Assembly (NCBI RefSeq): GCF_007692655.1
Contig: NZ_REBQ01000067.1
Location: 1-64,000, forward strand
Direction of reading: 5' to 3'
Source of the DNA: Halomonas sp.
Lineage (GTDB): Bacteria; Pseudomonadota; Gammaproteobacteria; Pseudomonadales; Halomonadaceae
DNA: 64,000 bases
The position numbers and the translations under genes are program-made. This document shows, in pieces, positions 1 through 51,000 of the stretch (its first letter is position 1; every line of letters begins with the position of its first letter). Under the pieces are notes generated by a model, which was not told where the DNA came from, did no database searches, and saw only the letters and a program-made list of their open reading frames with translations.

Positions 1-492
1 GAGATCGATTGGTAACCGGGTGAGGTTCTCGGTCGTCACCAAGCTTGATGAGCCTTGAAGATTTTTTCCAAGATATTTACAGGCCAGCACCGAAAAAAGC
101 TGCCCCCCTGTCTACCGGCCAGAGCTATCTGCTCTGCACTAATTGATGTCTAGGCCTGTATGCGACAGATACTTATTTTCTGGTCTTTGAACGATTATTT
201 TTAACACATTCTCAACTACCTCCGCAGCGCGTTGCGCCATGAATCTCCATAGAAGGTGACTGAGAATGGTAGGCCTTACGAGTCTCGCTTCAGACAATGG
301 CATGTGTTTAAAGATTAGACGCATAGACGATATCAATATTTTGACGCGCCGCGAATGTGTACTTTATGAACTCAATTTCTTACTAAATATCTAGTTCTTT
401 TGAATGGCGTTGATGCACCAAACGATTTAACGAGCAATACTAGAAGTGTGCTTATTGACTAGTCATCTAAAAACAATAAATTCGAGCATATT
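1..492. other. Left-edge region without a recognisable gene
   Basis: I see no credible coding sequence here. A 65-codon minus-strand frame at 139-336 has no ribosome-binding site and no recognisable motif. The stretch from about 340 is AT-rich. A TGACTAGTCA palindrome at 456-465 lies about 30 bases before the following broken gene and could be part of its old promoter. Confidence 0.5.
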
Positions 493-998
493 ATGACCTC
501 TATTCGCCAACTGCTTAACGTCAACGAGCATGGCCATGGCACGACACCATTGTTGCTGATTCACGGCTTAGGTTGTGACCAGACGGTTTGGCGGTGTCTT
601 CTTGCCATGCTTGAAAACTACTACCACCTGATCCTCTTGGATATCGACCACTTTAAAACAGTCAATGATCACCATGGCCATGCGGTCGGTGACCACGTGC
701 TGCAGCAGCTTGCCAAATTGCTTGTATCGCAACTACGAGATCGAGACCTTGCACCCGCATCGGCGGCGAGGAGTTTGCCTTGTTAATGCCCGATACTTCA
801 ATAGATGAAGCCAGCAGCGCTCTTGAGCGATTACGCTGTGCCATTGAGGAGTATCACTGGCAGCCAGTGACCATTACCGCCAGTTTTGGAGTAACCGGCT
901 ATCTGTCTGGAGACACGGGTGAGAGCCTAATGGCGCGTGCTGATGTCGCCCTCTATACAGCCAAACACCTGGGGCGTAACCACGTCGCCAAAGGATGA
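493..998 (+). pseudogene. Chimeric remnant: RsbQ-like alpha/beta hydrolase N-terminus fused to a frameshifted GGDEF domain
   Basis: The first 40 or so codons read like the start of an RsbQ-type alpha/beta hydrolase (LLLIHGLGCDQTVW, the oxyanion-hole region). The frame then passes directly into the middle of a diguanylate cyclase domain (LLDIDHFKTVNDHHGHAVGD). The hydrolase nucleophile and the rest of its fold are missing. At about 753-756 the frame is lost: restoring it by removing two C residues or adding one base gives D-L-A-R-I-GGEEF-A, which continues in the frame ending at 998 (ASFGVTGY, ADVALYTAKHLGRN). This is therefore a deletion fusion of two neighbouring genes followed by a frameshift. 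The GGEEF half could have been active before the frameshift. A sequencing error at 754 cannot be excluded, but the hydrolase truncation would remain. Confidence 0.75.
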
Positions 999-1011
999 GT
1001 AGGAGCTTGTG

Positions 1012-4000
1012 ATGCGAGTTACAGTGGCTGAGCCGAGAGCACGCAACGATGCTGGTTTACCGTATCGTGTACGCGACGTTGCTTTAGATGTTGGCATGTT
1101 GATGGCGGCCGCTACCTTTACCCTCTTAGGCGGCACGGGGCTTTTAGGCTATCTCGCGGGCATCACCTATCCCCTGAGCAGGTTAATGGTGGCTGACGCT
1201 GCTCTGGCTGGATTTTTAGCCGGTCTCTGCCTGCTGGGCTGGTTGTTTCATCAGCGGTGGCTGGGCTACTTAGCTGCTATACCACTCGTCATGATCACTC
1301 TTTACACACTGGTGCACAATTTTTTGGCAGGCGGGCCATGGGATGGACAGTCATGGGTGTCAGGTGGCCCAAGAATCCTCTCGATGGCAGCATTAATGCT
1401 GTTGTTGGTCGCCTTATGTACTGTCCTAGGCATGAAGCGGCCTTGGCATCGTTGGGTTTGGGCATTCAGTGGGTTACTGGCATTGGGAGCAGGCGGGCTT
1501 TCCATGATGCTAATCATTAACCCGATCAGCCGCCTTGGTTGGGCAGAAAACTTTGTTTCATCCCCTATCCTAGCCACGCTTTACGCTTTAATGGGGGGTA
1601 TAGCCTTAATTGGGGCTGCATGGCGCGGCAGTCGCCGCTTACTTCCCTTAGGATGGCTGACTCAGTTCGCGGTGGTGGCCGGTGTGTTGGTTAGTTGTTT
1701 GGCATGGTACACCCTTAACTGGAGCGCCCAGAGCGACATACAGCGCCAGGCTGAAATATTGATGGATAATGCAGCACTCAACGCTCGACATACTATGCAA
1801 TCAGAGCTGGAGGTGATTCAGCGTCTAGCTTGGCGACAAGGGCTTGGTAACGGTGTGGAAGGGTGGGAGCACGATGTTCAGGCCTACTTCCAACATGCCC
1901 CGTATTTAAAAACGCTGGCCTTACTGGGACCTGATGGTGAATTTGAGGATATTCGTGCTTCATCTGAGCAATACCGACTTCGCTTAGTTCAAGAAGTGAA
2001 CGCGTTGCGTCTTCAAGAGACATTGCCACGTGACTGGTCGGGAACAGCTTCTTTTACGGTGCCTAACCGCCCTAGTCATCTGCTGTTAGTGACCCCTTTG
2101 GGTAATCTTGATGCAGGACAACTAATAGCCGAGGTAGATTTGGCGGAACTGCTAGGGCAGCAGCTTAAAGTTCAGTTGAACCAGTTCAGGCTCACTGCTG
2201 GCGGGGATAGCTCTTTCCTTATCTTGGAGCAACCGGGAAGAGCTATTTATGACAGCTTCTTGCGCCCACTGCCGCATTTGGGTCGACGACACGTAGGTCT
2301 TCCTGGCGGATCTGGTCTGACACTCGATGTTCACATGAACTCCGTTTCGGGCATGCTTCATGCTGGCATCATGCCCGCCGGTTTCGCGATTGCAGGCCTG
2401 ACGCTTAGCTACCTGTTAGCCCTTAGTTTGGCCTTGGTTAGGCTGTTGCTGTTGCGTTCACATGAGGTTTTAGCCGCTCGACAGCATCTTGAGGCGCAAT
2501 ATGATCTCGAACAGCGATTCCGGTCTCTTTATCTTTATAATCCTGATGGCGTTTTCTCTATCGACCGAGAAGGCCGTGTTGTCACTGCTAATGAAGCCTG
2601 CAGTCATATCACCGGTCGTTCTAACGACGAGGTATTGGGCAATCACTTTTCCACGCTATTACAGCCGCAGGATATTGGACGTATGCAAGCGCTCCATGCT
2701 TCGACGCTGATCGGTCACCCTGACCAAGTGGAATTACAGATAGCACACACCGACGGTCATATGAAAATTTTAGACCTGACCACGATGCCTATCATTGTAG
2801 GCGGTGTGACGAAAGGGGTGTTTTGCATCGCAAAAGACATTACTCAGCAAAGCGAACAGGAAGCCCAGTTAGCTTATCTGGCAAGGCATGACTTGCTCAC
2901 CACGTTGCCCAACCACGCTACCTTTGATGAGCGTTTGAATAAGGAATTTGAGCAGGCAAAGCGCATGGGCAGTCTTCTGATCGTCATGCATCTCAACCTG
3001 GACGGTTTCAAAACAATCAATGATGGACTGGGATATCATATTGGCAATCAACTTTTGGTGTTGGTGGCAGGCCGACTGCTTGAGGTAGTAGGTCAGGATA
3101 ATACCCTGGCTCGCCTCACTGGCGATGAGTTCGCCTTACTCTTCATCAGCCTTGATGACCGTCAGGCGGGACTCGATATGGCTCAGCGCTTGCTGGACAC
3201 GCTATCAGCTCCTTTCCAAATTGAGGGAACACCTGTTCAAATCAGTGCCAGTATTGGCATAGCCTGTAACTGTGCGTCGGCGAAACATGCCTATAAGCTA
3301 ATGCAGCGCGCAGGCCTTGCCATGAGTGATGCCAAGCAACAAGGGCGCAATACGTGGCAATGGTATCAAGGCGAAGAGCAACAGATTACTAAAGCGTCGG
3401 TGCTACTACGGCACGATTTGCATACTGCGCTTCAGGAAGAGCAGTTTGAACTTCACTACCAGCCTATCGTAGAAGCAATGAGCGGTCGCATTCATAGCTT
3501 TGAGGCCTTGATTCGCTGGCAACATCCTGAAAAGGGCATGATTTCTCCTGACGTGTTTATCCCCCTCGCCGAGCAGACAGGACAGATCATTTCGTTGGGG
3601 CGCTGGATTATGTATCGCGTCTGCCAAGATGCCGCAATCATGCATGCTACAAGCCACCGTGCGCTCCCGGTAGCTGTCAATATATCGTCGCTACAGTTTC
3701 GTCGGGCAGGATTCCTTGAAGATGTTCAGCACGCGCTGACCGCATCTGGCCTTCCTGCCAAATTCTTGGAGCTGGAGGTGACTGAGAGTGTATTGCTGGA
3801 TGGTGCCGAGCAGGCCATCGAACTGGTCAACAAGCTCAAGGCAATGGGCATTAACGTCGCACTTGATGACTTTGGCACTGGTTTTTCTAGCTTGAGCTAT
3901 CTGCGTGACCTACCTATTAACAAAGTAAAATTGGATCGTGCCTTCATAAAGGACATAACGACCGATCTTCGCAATGCAGCTATTGTGCAGGGAATTATTA

Positions 4001-6676: not shown

Positions 6677-7399
6677 TCACAAGTCCTTGATCAGGTTAGG
6701 CTCAGCATTGTCCAGGTGTAGGTAGCGTACTTTGAAATCGGCATATTTCTTGAGTCCCGGCCAATCCGTCACTTCTACTCTTCGGCCTTCAAAAGTGATC
6801 AAACCCTCCGCTCGCAACCGCATCATGACACGGTTGGTATGGACGACCGTGATGCCCATGGCTTCGCTTAACTGGGCTTGTGTGAGCGGCAAGTAAAAGT
6901 GATGATCCTCCGTGAGCCCAGCTGCTCTTACGCGGATAAGTAGTTCACAAATCAGGTGTGCGAGACGCTGATGAGAGGGGCGTGACCCCACGTTGAGCAG
7001 CCATTCCTGAAGGATAGAGAACTCATTGAACGCCAGCCAGTTAAAGGAGCGAGCCAGGCGGTGATTTTCTCGGGAGATTTCTTCAATTCTCTCGTGCGGA
7101 ATATAAGCAATCACAGAGGGGGCGACAGTACCGATGGAGTATTCGATACAGTGAGCAAGATTGGTATGAAGGTTGCAAAAATCGCCGGGGATGTGGAAGT
7201 TAAGCGTCTGCACTTTTCCGTGCATGTTCAACCTATAACGACTAACCCAACCTTTAACCACAAGGTACACATGCCGGGATTTGTCTCCTTCCTGAATCAC
7301 GTCCTCGTCTTTGCCAAAGGATCTTTCGTTGCTCACAGCATTTTCGAGTAATTTAATATCTTCTGCCGTATGAGCTTGAAAATTGTTCAACTTTGACAT
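6677..7399 (-). CDS. Crp/Fnr-family transcriptional regulator
   Basis: A 240-residue regulator with an N-terminal cyclic-nucleotide-binding-type beta roll (EGDKSRHVYLVVKGWVSRYR, FHIPGDFC) and a C-terminal winged helix (LPLTQAQLSEAMGITVVHTN then RLRAEGLI). It lacks the N-terminal cysteine cluster of FNR, so it is not an oxygen-sensing Fe-S protein of that kind. The ligand is unknown. The frame is open for another 59 codons upstream to 7576. I chose ATG 7399 because it gives the usual family length. ATG 7489 is an alternative, and neither has a strong ribosome-binding site. It faces away from fetAB and has no obvious operon partner. Confidence 0.8.
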   Translation of the reverse strand: MSKLNNFQAHTAEDIKLLENAVSNERSFGKDEDVIQEGDKSRHVYLVVKGWVSRYRLNMHGKVQTLNFHIPGDFCNLHTNLAHCIEYSIGTVAPSVIAYIPHERIEEISRENHRLARSFNWLAFNEFSILQEWLLNVGSRPSHQRLAHLICELLIRVRAAGLTEDHHFYLPLTQAQLSEAMGITVVHTNRVMMRLRAEGLITFEGRRVEVTDWPGLKKYADFKVRYLHLDNAEPNLIKDL

Positions 7400-7621: not shown

Positions 7622-7657
7622 CAAAAGAAAAGCCCAGCCGATGGGGGCCGGGCCTTT
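7622..7657 (-). terminator. Intrinsic terminator of the Csr/Rsm-like RNA
   Basis: Minus-strand hairpin GGCCCGGCC / GGCTGGGC with a CCCAT loop, one mismatch and one bulge, followed by TTTTCTTTT. It may also stop transcription coming from selC. Confidence 0.7.
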
Positions 7658-7795
7658 CCTGTCACCGCTTCCTTGCGGGCACCTATGAGCGTCCTGCTCA
7701 AACCTTCCTGGTGGCATCAAGCTTTCCTTGCTCGGAACATCCTTGCGAGAGCATCCGCTGCTCATGAACATGATGGCATGGTGTCGAGTCGTCTC
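7622..7795 (-). ncRNA. Probable CsrB/RsmZ-type small RNA that titrates CsrA/RsmA
   Basis: On the minus strand this stretch holds at least six short hairpins that present GGA in the loop, the binding signature of CsrA/RsmA. The hairpins are GAGC-AGCGGAT-GCTC (7749-7763), TCG-CAAGGATGTTC-CGA (7732-7748), AGC-AAGGAAA-GCT (7720-7732), ACC-AGGAA-GGT (7702-7712), GAGC-AGGAC-GCTC (7687-7699) and CCGC-AAGGAA-GCGG (7665-7678). A seventh, unpaired ACAGGAAAGG precedes the terminator. There is no open frame. An intrinsic terminator ends it and a GacA-like box lies about 85 bases upstream of the assumed 5' end. The 3' end is well supported. The 5' end near 7795 is a guess. Known RNAs of this class sequester CsrA under control of the GacS/GacA (BarA/UvrY) system. 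Confidence 0.75.
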
Positions 7796-7871
7796 TTATG
7801 ATCTAGGTTAATGCCCACCGCTTTTTGGTCATGGGATTAATCTAAAATGTTGAACCGGCGAACGCGATTTT

Positions 7872-7889
7872 AGTAGGCAGTCGCTTATA
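7872..7889 (-). promoter_or_regulatory. GacA/UvrY-type upstream activating box
   Basis: The minus strand reads TATAAG-CGACTG-CCTACT. Against the Pseudomonas GacA consensus TGTAAG-N2-AT-N2-CTTACA it matches 10 of the 14 defined positions. It lies about 85 bases upstream of the putative Csr/Rsm RNA start and downstream of selC, where such a box is expected for rsm/csr RNA genes. Confidence 0.5.
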
Positions 7890-7959: not shown

Positions 7960-8055
7960 TGGCGGAAGAGCGTGGGAGTCGAACCCACCAGGGACTGCTG
8001 GCAGCCCCTGCCAGATTTGAAGTCTGGCCGCCCCACCGGGGGTCGATTCTCTTCC
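7960..8055 (-). tRNA. selC: tRNA-Sec, anticodon TCA
   Basis: The minus strand folds as a selenocysteine tRNA. The acceptor stem is GGAAGAG/CTCTTCC with discriminator G and encoded CCA (7960-7962). The anticodon stem is CCAGA/TCTGG around loop CTTCAAA, with anticodon TCA at 8018-8020. A long variable arm (GGGGCTG-CCAG-CAGTCCC) and the T arm with GTTCGA complete it. The length of 93 nt plus CCA fits the oversized selC class. It begins 15 bases after the selB stop, so it is probably co-transcribed with selAB. It decodes UGA in fdoG. Confidence 0.97.
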
Positions 8056-14176: not shown

Positions 14177-17100
14177 TTGTCGACCCGTACCAGGAACGAC
14201 TTGTACTCTGGGGTCTGGGTGTTGGCGTCGCCCACCGAGGGGGTCAGGGTATTGGTCAGGTGTGCCTTCTTCGTTTCGCCCATAAACCCCCAGTGCAGCG
14301 GGATGCCCACCTGATGCACCGTCTGACCGGCGACCTGCAGAGGTCGGATGCGTTTGGTCACCACGGCCACGGCATCGATATGGCCACGCTTGGAGCTGAC
14401 CCGCACTCGATCGCCCTTCACAATGCCTAACTCTTGCGCCAGGGTTTCACCGATCTCGACGAATTTCTCCGGCTGGGCGATGGCGTTGAGGCGGTTATGC
14501 ATGGTCCAGTAGTGAAAGTGCTCGGTCAGCCGGTAGCTGGTGGCCGCATGAGGGAACTCCTCGAAGGAGCCGAAGTTCTCCCGGTCCTGCTCGAAAACCC
14601 GCGCCGCAGGATTGTTCTTGGCCAGAGGGCTGTTGGGGTGCATAGGGTTATTGGCGATGGGCGTTTCGAAGGGCTCGTAGTGCTCCGGGAAGGGGCCCTC
14701 GTTCATTCGATCACGGGCAAAGAGCTGGCCGCGCCCGGTCTGATTCATCACAAAAGGCCCCTGATTGGCACCGGGTGTAGAGTCTTCGGGGAAATCGGGC
14801 ACGTCGTTGCCAACCCAGCGCTGGCCGTCCCACCACACTACGGCCTTGTGTTCGGCCCAGGGCGTGCCGTCGGGACGTGCGCTGGCGCGGTTGTAAAGAA
14901 TCCGGCGGTTAGCTGGCCAGGCCCAGGCCCAGCCCAGTGTCTGGCCGGTGCCGTAGGGATCGGAGTTGTCGCGACGAGCCATCTGGTTGCCTTGCTCGGT
15001 CCAGCAGCCGGCAAATACCCAACAGCCGCAGGCGGTGCTGCCGTCTGCACGCAGCATGCCGAAGTCCTCCAGCTGTTCACCGGCTCGAACGGTGATGTTT
15101 CGTTCCGGGTCGACGACATCCTCCAGGGCCCAACCGTTGTACTCCCGGGCCAGCTCATGAGGGCTTGGATCATCGGGTCGGCGGTAGGGCCAGTGCAGAT
15201 TGAGAATCGGGTCGGGGAAGGCCCCGCCTTCCTCACGATATAGCCGCTGCAGGCGCAGGAAGAGCCCGGCCAGTATCGCGGCGTCCGGGCGCGCCTCGCC
15301 CGGCGGCGGGGCTGCCTGCCAGAACCACTGCAGCCAGCGGGAGCTGTTGACGATGGAGCCATCCTCTTCAGCAAAGCTGGTGGTGGGCAGCCGAAAGACC
15401 TCGGTGCCTATCTCCTCTGGATTTACATCGTGGTACTCGCCCTGATTCCTCCAGAACTCGGCGGTTTCAGTGCTGAGCGGGTCGATCACCACCAGGTATT
15501 TCAGGCGCGACAGCGATGCGGTGACCTTGGCCTTATGGGGGAAGGCGGCCAGGGCATTGAAGCCCTGGCAGAAGTAGCCGTTGATTTCGCCGTGGCTCAT
15601 CCGCTCGAAGGTGTGCAGGATGTCGTACAAGTCCTCCCCCATCTTCGGCAGCCAGTGGTAGCACCAGTCGTTCTCCGCGGTGGCGGCATCGCCGAACCAG
15701 GCCTTCATCAGGCTGACATGAAAGCGTTCGTAGTGGCGCCAGTAGGAGACTTCGTCAGGCACCAGCGGCGGGCGGGCGCGATCGAGAATGAACTGCTCGT
15801 ACTCCTGTTCATCGTTATCGGCTAGCGTCAGGTAGCCGGGCAGCTGGTCGGAGAGTAACCCCAGGTCGGTGAGACCCTGGATATTGGAGTGCCCCCGCAG
15901 GGCGTTGACGCCGCCACCGCGCATACCCATGTTGCCCAGCAGCAGCTGGACAATGGCGGCGGTGCGGATAATTTGCGAGCCAATGGAGTGTTGGGTCCAG
16001 CCCAGGGCGTAGAGAAAGGTCATGGTCTTTTCAGGCCTCGCCGTCTCGGCCGCCATGTCCCAGACGCGCTGGATCTTGTCGCGGGGAGTGCCGCATACCG
16101 ACGAGACGACATCGAGGCTGTAGCGGCTGAAGTGCTCGCGCATCAGTTGGAAGACACAGCGGGGGTGCTGCAGGGTATCGTCGCGCAGGGCGTGGCCTTC
16201 CTCGTCATATTCGTACTGCCAGCTGCCCATCTCGTATTCGCCGTTTTCGGCGTCGTAGCCGGTGAACAGGCCATCCTCGAAGCCGAACTCTTCTCTGACG
16301 ATCAGGCTGGCATCGGTATAGGCACGAACATATTCATGATGGATATGGTCGTTCTCGATCAGGTAGCTGATTAATCCACCGAGAAAGGCGATGTCGGTGC
16401 CGGTGCGGATCTCGGCAAAGAAGTCCGCGACGGCGGCGGTGCGCGTAAAGCGCGGATCGACCACTACCAGCCGGGCATCGTTGTGCTCCTTGGCTTCCAT
16501 CACCCAGCGGAAACCCACGGGGTGGGCCTCAGCGGGGTTGCCGCCCATACCGATGATCAGGTCGGCATTACGAATGTCGACCCAGTGATTGGTCATGGCA
16601 CCGCGACCGAATGTTGGGGCAAGACCTGCCACCGTCGGTCCGTGTCAGACGCGCGCCTGATTGTCGAATGCCACCATACCGAGACTGCGCACCATCTTCT
16701 GGGTCAGGTAGGCGGTCTCATTGGTCGAGGCCGAGGCTGCAAGGAAGCCCGTCGTGGTCCAGTGGTTGACCGTGTTGCCGTCGCCGTCCTCGGTGACGAA
16801 GTTGGCGTCCCGGTCATCCTTCATATGGCGGGCAATGCGCGTCAGTGCATCATCCCATGAGATACGCTGCCACTCATTGGTACCTGGCTCGCGAACCATG
16901 GGATATTTGAGTCGAGACTCGCTGCGGATATAGTCGAGCAGGCCCGCTCCCTTGGGGCAAAGCGAGCCCCGGCTGACCGGGTGGTCGGGGTCGCCTTCGA
17001 CATGGTAGACATCGTCGATGTTGTTGATGGCGGCATCGCCGCGGCTGTAGATCAGCACGCCGCAGCCCACGGAGCAGTAGGTGCAGTTGCTGCGGGTAAT

Positions 17101-23569: not shown

Positions 23570-25195
23570 ATGGATGCACTCGCGAGAAGGCTGGGCCTCA
23601 AGACAGATCCCACCATTTTTTTCACGTCTGCCGGGATCATGATTCTTTTTTTAGTCGCACTTTTGATTGCTCCGGGCCCAATAGGGGAAGCCTTCGGCGC
23701 GGGGAGGGAATGGATCGTAACTAATCTTGGCTGGTTCTTTATCTTAGGGGTGACGAGTTGGGTAGCTTTCCTACTCTGGGTGGCGCTCAGCCGTTATGGG
23801 GCGATCCGGCTGGGTGGCAATGATGCGAAGCCTGCCTATAGCAACGTCTCCTGGTTCACTATGTTGTTCGCTGGCGGTATCGGCACGGTACTCATGTTCT
23901 GGGGCGTAGCCGAGCCTATTTCCCACTTCTCATCTCCACCAAGGCCCGGAGTCGAGCCTTTCTCAGTGGCCGCTGCCGACGATGCCATGAGCTTTTCGAT
24001 CTATCACTTGGGGCTGCATACCTGGGCGATTTTCGCCATGCCGGGGCTGGCGTTTGCGTACTTTATCTATCGTTACAATCTCCCAATGCGATTCAGCTCG
24101 GTCTTCTACCCACTACTCGGTGAGCGCATTTACGGCCCTATCGGTAAAACCCTCGATATTTTTGCTATTCTCGGCACACTGTTTGGTGTGGCAGTTTCGA
24201 TTGGTTTGGGCACCCAGCAAATTAATGCGGGATTAACCGAACTGTTTGGTGTTCCGGATGCAGTGCTAACGAAAGTCCTGATTATCGCCGTCCTTACCAC
24301 CGTCGCGGTGGGGTCGATCATAGCGGGACTAGATTCAGGCATAAAGCGGCTTTCCAATATTAATATTGGTATGGCTGTAGGCCTGCTGATATTTGTGCTC
24401 TTTACAGGCTCAACCGTTTTCCTGCTCCGCGCCATCGTCGAAACCTTCGGCCTCTATATAACGAATTTGCTGCCCATGGCTTTTTGGAATGACACTCTAG
24501 CCAGCTACACCAGTAATGACGGTAGCGGCTGGGGGTGGCAGGGCAGTTGGACAGTGTTCTATTGGGCTTGGACAGTCACTTGGTCACCATTCATAGGGAT
24601 ATTTGTGGCGCGGATTTCCCGCGGGCGGACTATCCGTGAGTTCGTGCTTGGTGTGCTATTCGCACCCTCCATCTTTACGCTGATCTGGTTTGCGATCTTT
24701 GGCTGGTCTGCGATGGAGATTGATGGAATTGGAAGCGATGCTCGTGAAGCAATGGGGGATCAGGCCGGTGTATTGTCCGCTGCCGTTGGCGAAAGCATCC
24801 CCCTCGCCATGTTCGCCTTTTTCGAAAACTTCCCGGCCGCTACATTGATCCAGGGCCTGGCCGTCGTCATTGTTGCCATCTTCTTTGCTACGTCATCGGA
24901 TTCCGCATCTTTGGTCGTTGATATGCTTTGTACAGGCAAAGCGGACCCTGGACCCTGGCATCAGCGGGTATTCTGGGGTGTTTCTGAAGGTATGTTAGCC
25001 GCTATGCTCATCGTGCTTGCTGGTGATGCAGGGCTTACCGCACTGCAGGAGGTAATCACTGTTGTTGGCCTGCCGATGTTTATCCTGGTGTTTATCATGA
25101 TGTTTGCGCTTTACCGCGGCCTGTCTCATGAGGATCTCAGCGAAGTGAAGGTAGGCACTCCCCCTAGCCCGAAGGAGTTGCGGCCCGATGACTAG
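23570..25195 (+). CDS. BCCT-family betaine/choline/carnitine-type transporter
   Basis: A 541-residue transporter with about 12 transmembrane helices and the BCCT signature region GSWTVFYWAWTVTWSPFIG then FVARISRGRTIREF. The tryptophan-rich stretch forms the quaternary-ammonium binding box in BetP and CaiT. ATG 23570 is chosen over the adjacent GTG 23567; the GGGAG site serves either. There is no long C-terminal osmosensing extension of the BetP type. Placement opposite tmm suggests uptake of a methylated amine or betaine for osmoprotection or catabolism. The exact substrate is not determined. Confidence 0.9.
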   Translation: MDALARRLGLKTDPTIFFTSAGIMILFLVALLIAPGPIGEAFGAGREWIVTNLGWFFILGVTSWVAFLLWVALSRYGAIRLGGNDAKPAYSNVSWFTMLFAGGIGTVLMFWGVAEPISHFSSPPRPGVEPFSVAAADDAMSFSIYHLGLHTWAIFAMPGLAFAYFIYRYNLPMRFSSVFYPLLGERIYGPIGKTLDIFAILGTLFGVAVSIGLGTQQINAGLTELFGVPDAVLTKVLIIAVLTTVAVGSIIAGLDSGIKRLSNINIGMAVGLLIFVLFTGSTVFLLRAIVETFGLYITNLLPMAFWNDTLASYTSNDGSGWGWQGSWTVFYWAWTVTWSPFIGIFVARISRGRTIREFVLGVLFAPSIFTLIWFAIFGWSAMEIDGIGSDAREAMGDQAGVLSAAVGESIPLAMFAFFENFPAATLIQGLAVVIVAIFFATSSDSASLVVDMLCTGKADPGPWHQRVFWGVSEGMLAAMLIVLAGDAGLTALQEVITVVGLPMFILVFIMMFALYRGLSHEDLSEVKVGTPPSPKELRPDD

Positions 25196-48052: not shown

Positions 48053-51000
48053 TTAGCTCGGGTCGTAAGAGAGCACCGGTGCGAGCCAGCGCTCCATTTC
48101 TTCAAGGGGCATTTGCTTACGCTCAGCGATCGCCTCGACCTGGTCGCGGGTAATCTTGCCGGTCGAAAAGTATTTCGACTGCGGGTGAGCAAAATACCAA
48201 CCAGACACCGCTGCGGCAGGCCACATGGCAAAGTTCTCTGTTAGCGCTAAGCCGGTGTTTTCGGTGGCATCGAGCAGCCGAAACAAGGTAGCTTTTTCGG
48301 TGTGATCCGGGCAGGCAGGATAGCCAGGGGCAGGGCGGATACCCTGATATTTCTCGGCAATCAATGCATCGTTATCCAGCGTTTCCTCGGGCACATAGCC
48401 CCAGAACTCTTTGCGGACGCGTTCGTGCATGCGCTCTGCAAACGCTTCCGCCAAACGGTCTGTCAGTGCCTGCACCATAATGGCGTTGTAGTCGTCTCCA
48501 GCGGCTTCATACGCCTTAGAGAGCTCATCAACGCCATGACCTGTAGTCACCGCAAAGCCACCAATCCAGTCGGCTTTGCCACTCTCTTTTGGGGCAATAA
48601 AGTCGGCCAGGCTGTAGCAAATGCCGTCGCGGCCTTTCGTGGTTTGTTGACGTATATGATGCAAACGCTCCACGACTTCACTGCGTGATTCATCCGCATA
48701 CACTTCAATGACGTCATCATCAACGCTGTTGGCAGGCCAAAGACCGATAACACCGCGGGCCTGAACGCGTTTCTCCGTCACCAGTTTGTGCAGCATCACC
48801 TTGGCATCTTCAAACAGGTTGCGTGCCGCTTCACCAACGACATGATCGTCAAGAATTTTCGGATATTTACCCGCCAGCTGCCAACTCATAAAGAACGGCG
48901 TCCAGTCAATACGCTCAATCAGCTCTTCAAGGTCGTAGTTATCAAATGTCTGCAGCCCCAGTACATGAGGCTGGGCAGGGGTATAGCTGCTCCAGTCGGT
49001 ACGAAAACGTCGCTTACGGGCCTGGGTGTAATCCAAATCCGCCGCTTTAGGCCGACGCTTGGCGTTACGCTCGCGTACCTTTTCATACTCTTCGCGGATT
49101 TCTGCCACGTAGGCGGCTTTTTGATTGGGGGCGAGCAAGCGACCCGCTACTCCTACGGCCCGAGAGGCGTCGGTGACATAAATCACCGGATGTTGGTACT
49201 GTGGCTCAATCTTAACCGCCGTATGCGCTTTGGAAGTCGTTGCGCCACCAATCAACAGCGGAATATCCATGCCACGGCGCTGCATTTCTTTGGCCACGTG
49301 AACCATCTCATCCAGTGACGGAGTGATCAGCCCTGATAAGCCTATAATATCGGCATTGTGGTCCTTGGCTGCCTGTAAAATCTTATCCGCAGACACCATG
49401 ACACCGAGATCAATCACCTCGTAGTTATTGCACTGCAGAACAACGCCAACGATATTTTTACCGATGTCGTGTACGTCGCCTTTCACCGTCGCCATGATGA
49501 TTTTGCCTTTGGCTTTGGTTTCTTCGCTTTTTTCGGCTTCGATATAGGGGATCAAGTAGGCCACTGCCTGCTTCATTACGCGTGCTGATTTAACAACCTG
49601 GGGCAGGAACATCTTGCCATCGCCAAACAGGTCGCCCACCACGTTCATGCCGTCCATTAGCGGGCCTTCGATGACTTCAATCGGCCGCTCGGCCTCGGCA
49701 CGCGCCTGTTCGGTATCGTCTTCGATATAGACCGTAATACCTTTCACAAGCGCGTGTTCAATACGCTTGTTAACCGGCCAGCTGCGCCACTCCAGGTCCT
49801 CTTTCTTGACCGCGCCGCTGCCATCGCCCTTATATTTATCGGCTATATCCAGCAGCCTCTCGGTGCCATCGCTGCGCCGGTTGAGGACCACATCCTCAAC
49901 CGCATCGCGTAGCTCGGCTGGCAGATCGTCATAGACGGCAAGCTGGCCAGCATTGACGATCCCCATGGAGAGACCCGCACGGATCGCGTGATAAAGGAAC
50001 GCTGAGTGGATCGCTTCACGAACCGGATTGTTGCCACGAAACGAGAAAGAGACGTTGGAGACACCGCCGGAGATCATTGCGTGGGGCAGGTGTTCGCGAA
50101 TCCACTGCGTCGCTTCGATAAAATCGACGGCGTAGTTATTGTGCTCTTCAATCCCTGTCGCAATGGCAAAGATATTCGGGTCGAAAATAATATCTTCTGC
50201 GGGAAAACCGATCTCATCCACCAACAGGCGATAGGCACGCTGACAAATTTCGGTTTTGCGGACAAAGGTATCTGCCTGGCCGTCTTCGTCAAAGGCCATC
50301 ACGACAATGGCAGCACCAAAACGGCGGCACTTGGTGGCCTGCTCACGGAAGGCGGCTTCGCCCTCTTTAAGCGAGATAGAGTTCACCACCGCTTTACCTT
50401 GAACGCACTTCAGTCCCGCTTCAATGATGTCCCATTTGGAGGAGTCGATCATGATCGGCACCCGGGCGATATCTGGCTCGCCCGCGATTAAGTTAAGGAA
50501 GCGCACCATCGCCTCCTTAGACTCAAGCATGCCTTCATCCATGTTGATATCGATGATCTGGGCACCGCTTTCAACCTGTTCAAGCGCAACTTCTAGCGCC
50601 GTTGTAAAGTCCTCTTCCACAATCAGCCGCTTAAAGCGCGCCGAACCGGTGACATTGGTACGCTCACCAACGTTCACAAACAGAGAGTCTGCCTCAATGT
50701 TATAGGGCTCAAGGCCGGAAAGGCGGCAGGCGCGGCTGCGTTCAGGAATGACCCGCGGCGGCATATCTCGCACAGAGTCGGCAATGGCGCGAATATGTTC
50801 AGGCGTTGAGCCACAGCAGCCGCCAATGATATTGACCAGACCGCTTGCCGCAAACTCACTGACAATCTCAGACATCTCTTCAGGGGTTTGGTCGTATTCA
50901 CCAAACTCGTTGGGCAACCCAGCGTTAGGGTGGGCAGAAACGAAGGTGTCGGCTTTAGTAGAGAGCTCTTCAAGATAGGGCCGTAGCTCTTCAGCGCCCA

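Follow-up and report, generated by a model that had tools for sequence, protein, structure and literature searches.

On the minus strand of the window, the stretch of 64,000 nucleotides of Halomonas sp. DNA analysed here, we identified a candidate small RNA of the CsrB/RsmX kind. We propose, with a probability of roughly 0.87, that it is a free-standing RNA of about 160 nt (about 7782-7623) and represents an extra copy of a plasmid-type lineage. The initial annotation had suggested a CsrB/RsmZ-type sponge for CsrA at this place, and this is still the best reading, considering the GGA loops, the covariation of the stems and the fact that both CsrA and GacA are encoded in the genome. At the level of sequence the sponge reading is well supported, and the best-supported account is that the RNA would work like CsrB/RsmX, with membership of this kind resting on CsrA binding. 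Very probably, it titrates the global regulator CsrA. The RNA family to which it belongs is uncatalogued, occurs in halophilic bacteria and reaches high copy numbers in some of their genomes.

The covariance-model match extends over positions 7623-7782 (minus strand), with 132.2 bits (model positions 1-161) for the first model (R1) and 86.9 bits for the second (R2). Seven GGA motifs had been described in about 110 bases of this strand, and all seven were found within 100 nt (first G at 7756, 7742, 7727, 7708, 7694, 7672 and 7659). The description of the loops as AGGA or AAGGA fits six of the motifs, the first one being CGGA. We counted a motif as looped when it was enclosed by a stem of at least four pairs, at least three of them Watson-Crick. 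By this rule, four of the seven motifs (7756, 7727, 7694 and 7672) are looped, fewer than the six originally claimed; the motif at 7708 (AGGA, 7706-7708) sits on a 3-bp stem recognized by eye as a fifth hairpin, which fails the rule. The four hairpins consist of a 5-bp stem GAGCA/TGCTC with a GGA loop (7749-7763), a stem CGAGC/GCTTG with an AAGGA loop (7718-7734), a stem TGAGC/GCTCA with the loop AGGAC (7686-7700), which is the most conserved one, and a 4-bp stem CCGC/GCGG with an AAGGAA loop (7665-7678). One further motif (AAGGA, with the GGA at 7740-7742) lies outside any strong stem-loop, and the last (AGGA, with the GGA at 7657-7659) is located directly ahead of the terminator stem. This probable intrinsic terminator (7623-7656), a G+C-rich hairpin whose T-rich tail runs to 7623, had also been proposed before. 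Its hairpin forms in RNAfold and the stem is conserved with compensatory changes among relatives, which bears out the proposal, although a simple promoter and terminator scan of the minus strand reported nothing, the terminator included.

Seven GGA motifs are the joint highest count for any 110-nt stretch on both strands of the window (tied with a stretch at 49967, plus strand), and four hairpin-looped motifs are likewise a joint maximum (tied at 24549, plus strand). When the 126 nt before the terminator were subjected to 2000 dinucleotide shuffles, seven GGA motifs were reached in 0.65% and four looped motifs in 0.15% of cases. For the complete 209-nt segment, the advantage in folding over shuffled versions is slight (RNAfold, z = -1.81, with 9 of 200 shuffles folding as well).

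Homologous RNAs with several GGA motifs and terminators were found before any model was built, which supports the sponge reading. An earlier plain DNA search of 58 relatives had returned matches in four, one of which was the own genome. A model-free DNA search of 82 genomes of the genus recovered homologues with the same anatomy in six genomes (E up to about 0.001) in addition to the own genome; at E <= 0.1, matches were obtained in 31 of the 82, own genome included. The remaining listed matches of this search spanned 18-40 bases and were attributed to chance. Two covariance models were used, R1 from eight sequences and R2 from 33 sequences, and because the window copy is included in both, its own scores are not independent evidence. 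R1 matched 69 of the 82 genus genomes at E <= 0.1. In many of these genomes, the copies are arranged in tandem, with a distance between starts of about 180-750 bases and in some cases of a few kilobases. R2 matched 140 of 201 genomes and 19 of 24 genera of the family at E <= 0.01 (15 candidates scored per genome), many of the matches being weak (E 0.001-0.01) and possibly due to chance. Among 145 genomes of the order, R2 matched seven at E <= 1e-5, three in Halomonadaceae (59.9 to 143.3 bits) and four in other families. Since the latter reached 31 to 36.5 bits, strong matches are confined to Halomonadaceae in this sample. Viral contigs, searched with one exact pattern, and phage records, searched with blastn, yielded no sponge match.

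The Rfam models of CsrB, CsrC, RsmX and RsmZ did not match the window at their gathering scores. The best match of the CsrB group was RsmY (RF00195) with 18.4 bits as opposed to a gathering score of 57, and at raised E-values no match of the group reached the gathering score either. Comparison with these models, a way of checking the RNA that had been proposed with the initial annotation, thus returned a best match far below its cut-off. The loci of six relatives, seven core or plasmid loci and nine further loci were likewise devoid of CsrB-group matches at gathering.

An alignment check for compensatory changes in the stems, also proposed earlier, gave a clear positive result. We used a structure-free alignment of 33 copies (A4) and evaluated two GGA hairpins as well as the terminator in it; five of 38 rows were left out (L070:8770-8820, an antisense terminator, L072:3307-3443, L066:1121-1274, L078:1274-1412 and L082:901-1039). 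Pair cells were paired in 93.8% of cases compared to 83.0% after shuffling, 68 cells showed changes on both sides compared to 22.1, and covariation amounted to 0.438 compared to 0.233 (0 of 500 shuffles in each case), with a shuffle control that leaves the relatedness of the sequences in. Both-side changes were present in 12 of 16 pairs, and structures slid along the alignment, a control that retains relatedness, paired at most 46.2% of cells. The hairpin at 7718-7734 (helix 1) was paired in 85.9% of cells with both-side changes in 3 of 5 pairs, the central AGGA hairpin at 7686-7700 (helix 2) in 97.6% with compensatory changes in all 5 pairs, and the terminator stem (helix 3) in 96.9% with compensatory changes in 4 of 6 pairs. 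Across the 33 sequences, the relatives keep their GGA loops while the stems covary.

With the seven plasmid-type copies of A4, the window copy shares 51-62% identity, compared to 39-40% with the core copies of its own genome. In the tree, it joins the plasmid-type clade with a support of 1.000; the inner branches are weak since the sequences are 160 nt long. The other members of this sub-lineage reside mostly on small plasmids. Most of the closest relatives were found on small contigs of 8978 bp (L077), 7605 bp (L078, two copies), 6148 bp (L080) and 5340 bp (L081). Terminal overlaps, as circular assemblies have, were detected for L077 (121 bp), L078 (121 bp) and L081 (55 bp), and none for the 6148-bp contig. 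Additionally, the encoded proteins include a Rep3 initiator (L077) and a member of the Replicase family (L081). One of the seven plasmid-type copies in A4 (L079) is located on a 71-kb contig of unsettled nature.

Further, the sponge is present on pIGAnt2 of Halomonas sp. Ant2 (L082, NZ_KP228014.1), a deposited circular plasmid of 6811 bp that is included in PLSDB. This plasmid carries three tandem covariance-model matches (374-1039, plus strand). A fourth copy, identified by eye, runs across the start of the record on the opposite strand to the other three (about 6700 to 60, minus). It has five GGA motifs, a terminator and an upstream TAACTCAGGTTAAG that resembles the core promoter element, and its part before the record start scores 14.4 bits with R2 (E = 0.023). 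DNA searches of PLSDB (72,556 records) with the plasmid-type sponges found pIGAnt2 alone. A single, short match of the window copy over the terminator, on a Mycolicibacterium plasmid, was taken as chance. No R2 match at E <= 1 was obtained for five further named Halomonas plasmids, which have a gene in common with the sponge plasmids. No CsrA-like frame was seen in a crude sequence-pattern check of 11 plasmid or plasmid-type loci.

Several other features recur on these plasmids. A palindrome like TATAAGCGTGA-N4-TCACGCTTATA is located before or after several of the plasmid sponge genes (L077, L078, L080, L081 and L082). Two small genes follow the plasmid sponge genes (L077:5930-6417 and L082:1119-1600, with similar frames on L078, L080 and L081). 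Their products on L077 have 75 and 86 amino acids (MALRKISDLKP... and MSRPRALQA...) and no Pfam match, and relatives of the first gene were seen on sponge-free plasmids as well, as judged by the model search. A nearly identical secreted-looking protein of 92 amino acids is encoded on the sponge plasmid L078 (176-454, minus strand) and on the 71-kb contig (L079:10005-10283, plus strand).

Core copies share a strongly conserved element, TAnCnnAGGTTAGATAA, some 30 nt ahead of their modelled start, and TATAAG or TATAGG often comes directly after it. Its best site falls at -28 to -35 in 17 of 18 copies, and in the remaining one a similar site can be recognized by eye at this place, the count covering 18 of the 25 core-type copies in A4 with those of L066, L074, L075 and L076 left out. 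The upstream regions of L074 and L075 look less alike at this position. At the corresponding place, the window has TAACCTAGATCATAAGA (7794-7810, minus strand), a weak candidate promoter element. Its best position in a scan with the position weight matrix (PWM) is -28 with a score of 2.4, which 11.6% of shuffles equal or exceed, so that it is not significant alone. The same PWM scan found no significant promoter site in nine plasmid-type copies.

The window copy could be a decaying, functionless remnant of a plasmid-type sponge stranded in the chromosome, as no significant promoter element was found on the minus strand. The site is also isolated and lineage-specific: none of 13 other selC regions of the genus that exceed the tRNA-Sec cut-off has a copy beside selC (R2, E <= 1), and R1 found no copy in 11 of these regions. 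However, the seven GGA motifs, the four strong hairpins and the terminator are present, and with this number of motifs the copy lies exactly at the median of 7 for the 33 sequences of the alignment, which carry 6-10 each. We consider decay unlikely.

Alternatively, the element may act in cis as a leader or attenuator of the downstream Crp/Fnr-type gene (6677-7399, minus strand; reading frame open from 7576; NCBIfam FixK/Fnr matches below cut-off), with read-through set by CsrA or by the terminator. It adjoins this gene on the same strand, and the fourth copy on pIGAnt2, identified by eye, also adjoins a Crp/Fnr gene, though on the opposite strand. On the other hand, relatives with the same anatomy adjoin unrelated genes, and the two Crp/Fnr proteins are 29% identical. 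We regard a leader as improbable. A tie to the neighbouring regulators, raised as a possibility in the initial annotation, likewise finds no evidence, because the 13 other selC regions of the genus above the tRNA-Sec cut-off lack a copy and the relatives lie beside other genes. The upstream neighbour is selC itself (tRNA-Sec, 7964-8055, minus strand; 74.8 bits with the Rfam tRNA-Sec model, also called by ARAGORN). A second selC 3' end that could mark an island border was not present in the window with up to three mismatches. As a separate observation, a SECIS_3 element (83.2 bits; 16592-16650, minus strand) is part of a gene resembling formate dehydrogenase. Downstream of it follow selA-, selB- and selC-like genes, all oriented alike (gene names assigned by eye), which apparently makes up a complete selenocysteine cluster.

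The proposal of the initial annotation amounts to an ordinary, vertically inherited and GacA-driven CsrB/RsmZ gene of this genome. The architecture of the RNA fits such a gene, and the proteins are encoded: CsrA (G000:C62:549-704) exceeds the curated cut-off of its equivalog model, and a GacA/UvrY equivalog (G000:C41:46630-47256) reached 292.7 bits with NF007018 (cut-off 280). The best match to the BarA model, a GacS/BarA candidate, had 623.1 bits against a cut-off of 890, which was exceeded in 1 of 14 control genomes. However, the genome already harbors two canonical copies on another contig (C89:4559-4717 and C89:5240-5397). An M42-type peptidase and an OmpV-like gene are their neighbours, as seen in the two core loci with genes listed, and the own locus additionally has a DASS transporter gene. 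Between the DASS and M42 peptidase genes lies a purine-rich stretch with six GGA motifs and a terminator (C89:7020-7193, L064; 31.9 bits); it shows no clear GGA hairpins by eye and was not counted as a third canonical copy.

Also against an ordinary gene stand the low identity of the window copy to these core copies, its grouping with the plasmid-type copies and the copy-free selC loci in the rest of the genus. In addition, the GacA-like box, for which 10 of 14 consensus positions had been claimed, did not hold up. The consensus of the GacA box is TGTAAG-N6-CTTACA, and the best site matched it at 9 of 12 positions. When upstream regions of this kind were shuffled by mononucleotide, 34 of 300 shuffles scored at least 9. 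Its 5' half, TATAAGC, aligns to the sequence downstream of selC in five relatives that lack a sponge at this place (exact in two of the five and similar in the others), in an alignment with a mean column identity of 51%. The box was rejected on both grounds. Of the implied regulatory cascade, the proteins CsrA and GacA are encoded in the genome; the box falls within chance, and the copy is extra to the two on C89. An ordinary gene was already disfavoured, and we judge it slightly less probable still than a leader. A chance GGA-rich spacer, although other GGA-rich stretches of the window tie on single measures, can practically be dismissed given the shuffle frequencies of 0.0065 and 0.0015, the homologues and the covariation over 33 sequences.

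Following our preferred reading, an extra and functional CsrB/RsmX-type RNA of the plasmid-type lineage that resides in the chromosome beside selC, the RNA would be transcribed from the minus strand and end at the intrinsic terminator. By binding several dimers of CsrA, it would free mRNAs held by this protein, and the window copy may be under the control of GacA. The interval between selC and the Crp/Fnr gene was probably reached by horizontal transfer of a plasmid-type copy. More broadly, we see an even chance that small Halomonadaceae plasmids, with up to four sponges on a single one of 6.8 kb, pull the CsrA regulation of their hosts toward the Gac-active state, and that such RNAs enter chromosomes and have multiplied in some genera to at least a dozen per genome.

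High copy numbers were observed in three genomes of two other genera (G205, G211 and G231; loci L116-L145), which were picked for their high R2 counts and for which 150 candidates were scored each. They yielded 16, 21 and 12 R2 matches at E <= 0.01, respectively, and 12, 17 and 10 at E < 1e-7. Overlaps of 28 and 39 bases were seen in two pairs of adjacent matches. All 30 matches fetched from these genomes have 6-9 GGA motifs each, and 29 of the 30 end in a G+C-rich hairpin. In G231, the sponge array is flanked on one side by a Guanidine-II riboswitch, a single site that appears as both L116:1848-1898 and L131:379-429. When named genomes were scanned with a pattern, 116 stretches were returned. 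Among the 80 that were listed, 62 had titles that we assign to Halomonadaceae, Billgrantia and Modicisalibacter being frequent names. The remaining 18 show a scattered distribution and are probably due to chance.

CsrB and CsrC of enteric bacteria are CsrA sponges with many GGA motifs under the control of GacA/UvrY, and CsrB is over twice as long as the window RNA, with many more GGA motifs. The window RNA differs from these in having no Rfam match at gathering. It resembles RsmX, RsmY and RsmZ of Pseudomonas in being a short RNA with repeated GGA loops, an intrinsic terminator, CsrA/RsmA as partner and GacA in the genome. It differs from Pseudomonas RsmY in its subthreshold score with that model and in the lack of an above-chance GacA box in the window, and the Halomonas core copies differ from RsmX/Y/Z in having their own conserved promoter element. 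Several antagonist RNAs per genome are also found in Pseudomonas amygdali pv. phaseolicola, for which seven (rsmX1-5, rsmY and rsmZ) are named (PMC7600136). In contrast to these seven, the three Halomonadaceae genomes contain 12, 16 and 21 R2 matches, and some copies of the Halomonas family are located on small plasmids. Among the matches listed in a search of the open-access PMC literature, we found no report of a genome with more than seven named antagonist RNAs.

Mobile elements are known to carry another part of the Csr/Rsm system. Two articles describe the Rsm protein RsmQ (PMC9928087) and csrA alleles in PLSDB (PMC7366521). Plasmids and phages thus bear the protein in those cases, whereas the Halomonadaceae plasmids bear the RNA antagonist. 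The latter article, a survey from 2020, lists Halomonas anticariensis as having a Gac-Csr cascade with an unknown antagonist RNA (PMC7366521). Among the matches listed from the open-access PMC literature (for two of the queries the best 20 of 683 and the best 15 of 55), neither a CsrB-type RNA of Halomonas nor one carried by a plasmid was reported. The main text of an article on a sequence-based predictor of CsrB-type RNAs contained none of five terms looked for (PMC5568370).

With this RNA family, a usable covariance model is now supplied for a putative antagonist in the Gac-Csr system of Halomonas. If plasmids indeed influence their hosts through such sponges and pass them on to chromosomes, this would parallel, at the RNA level, the CsrA proteins that plasmids carry, RsmQ being one example, and the family would be the largest of the CsrB type known to us. 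As halomonads are production hosts, the Csr switch may also have practical use. Genomes with 12-21 model matches allow asking why so many sponges are kept, and the plasmid-borne members suggest that mobile elements may sway their hosts by titrating CsrA, the reverse of what plasmid-borne CsrA proteins do.
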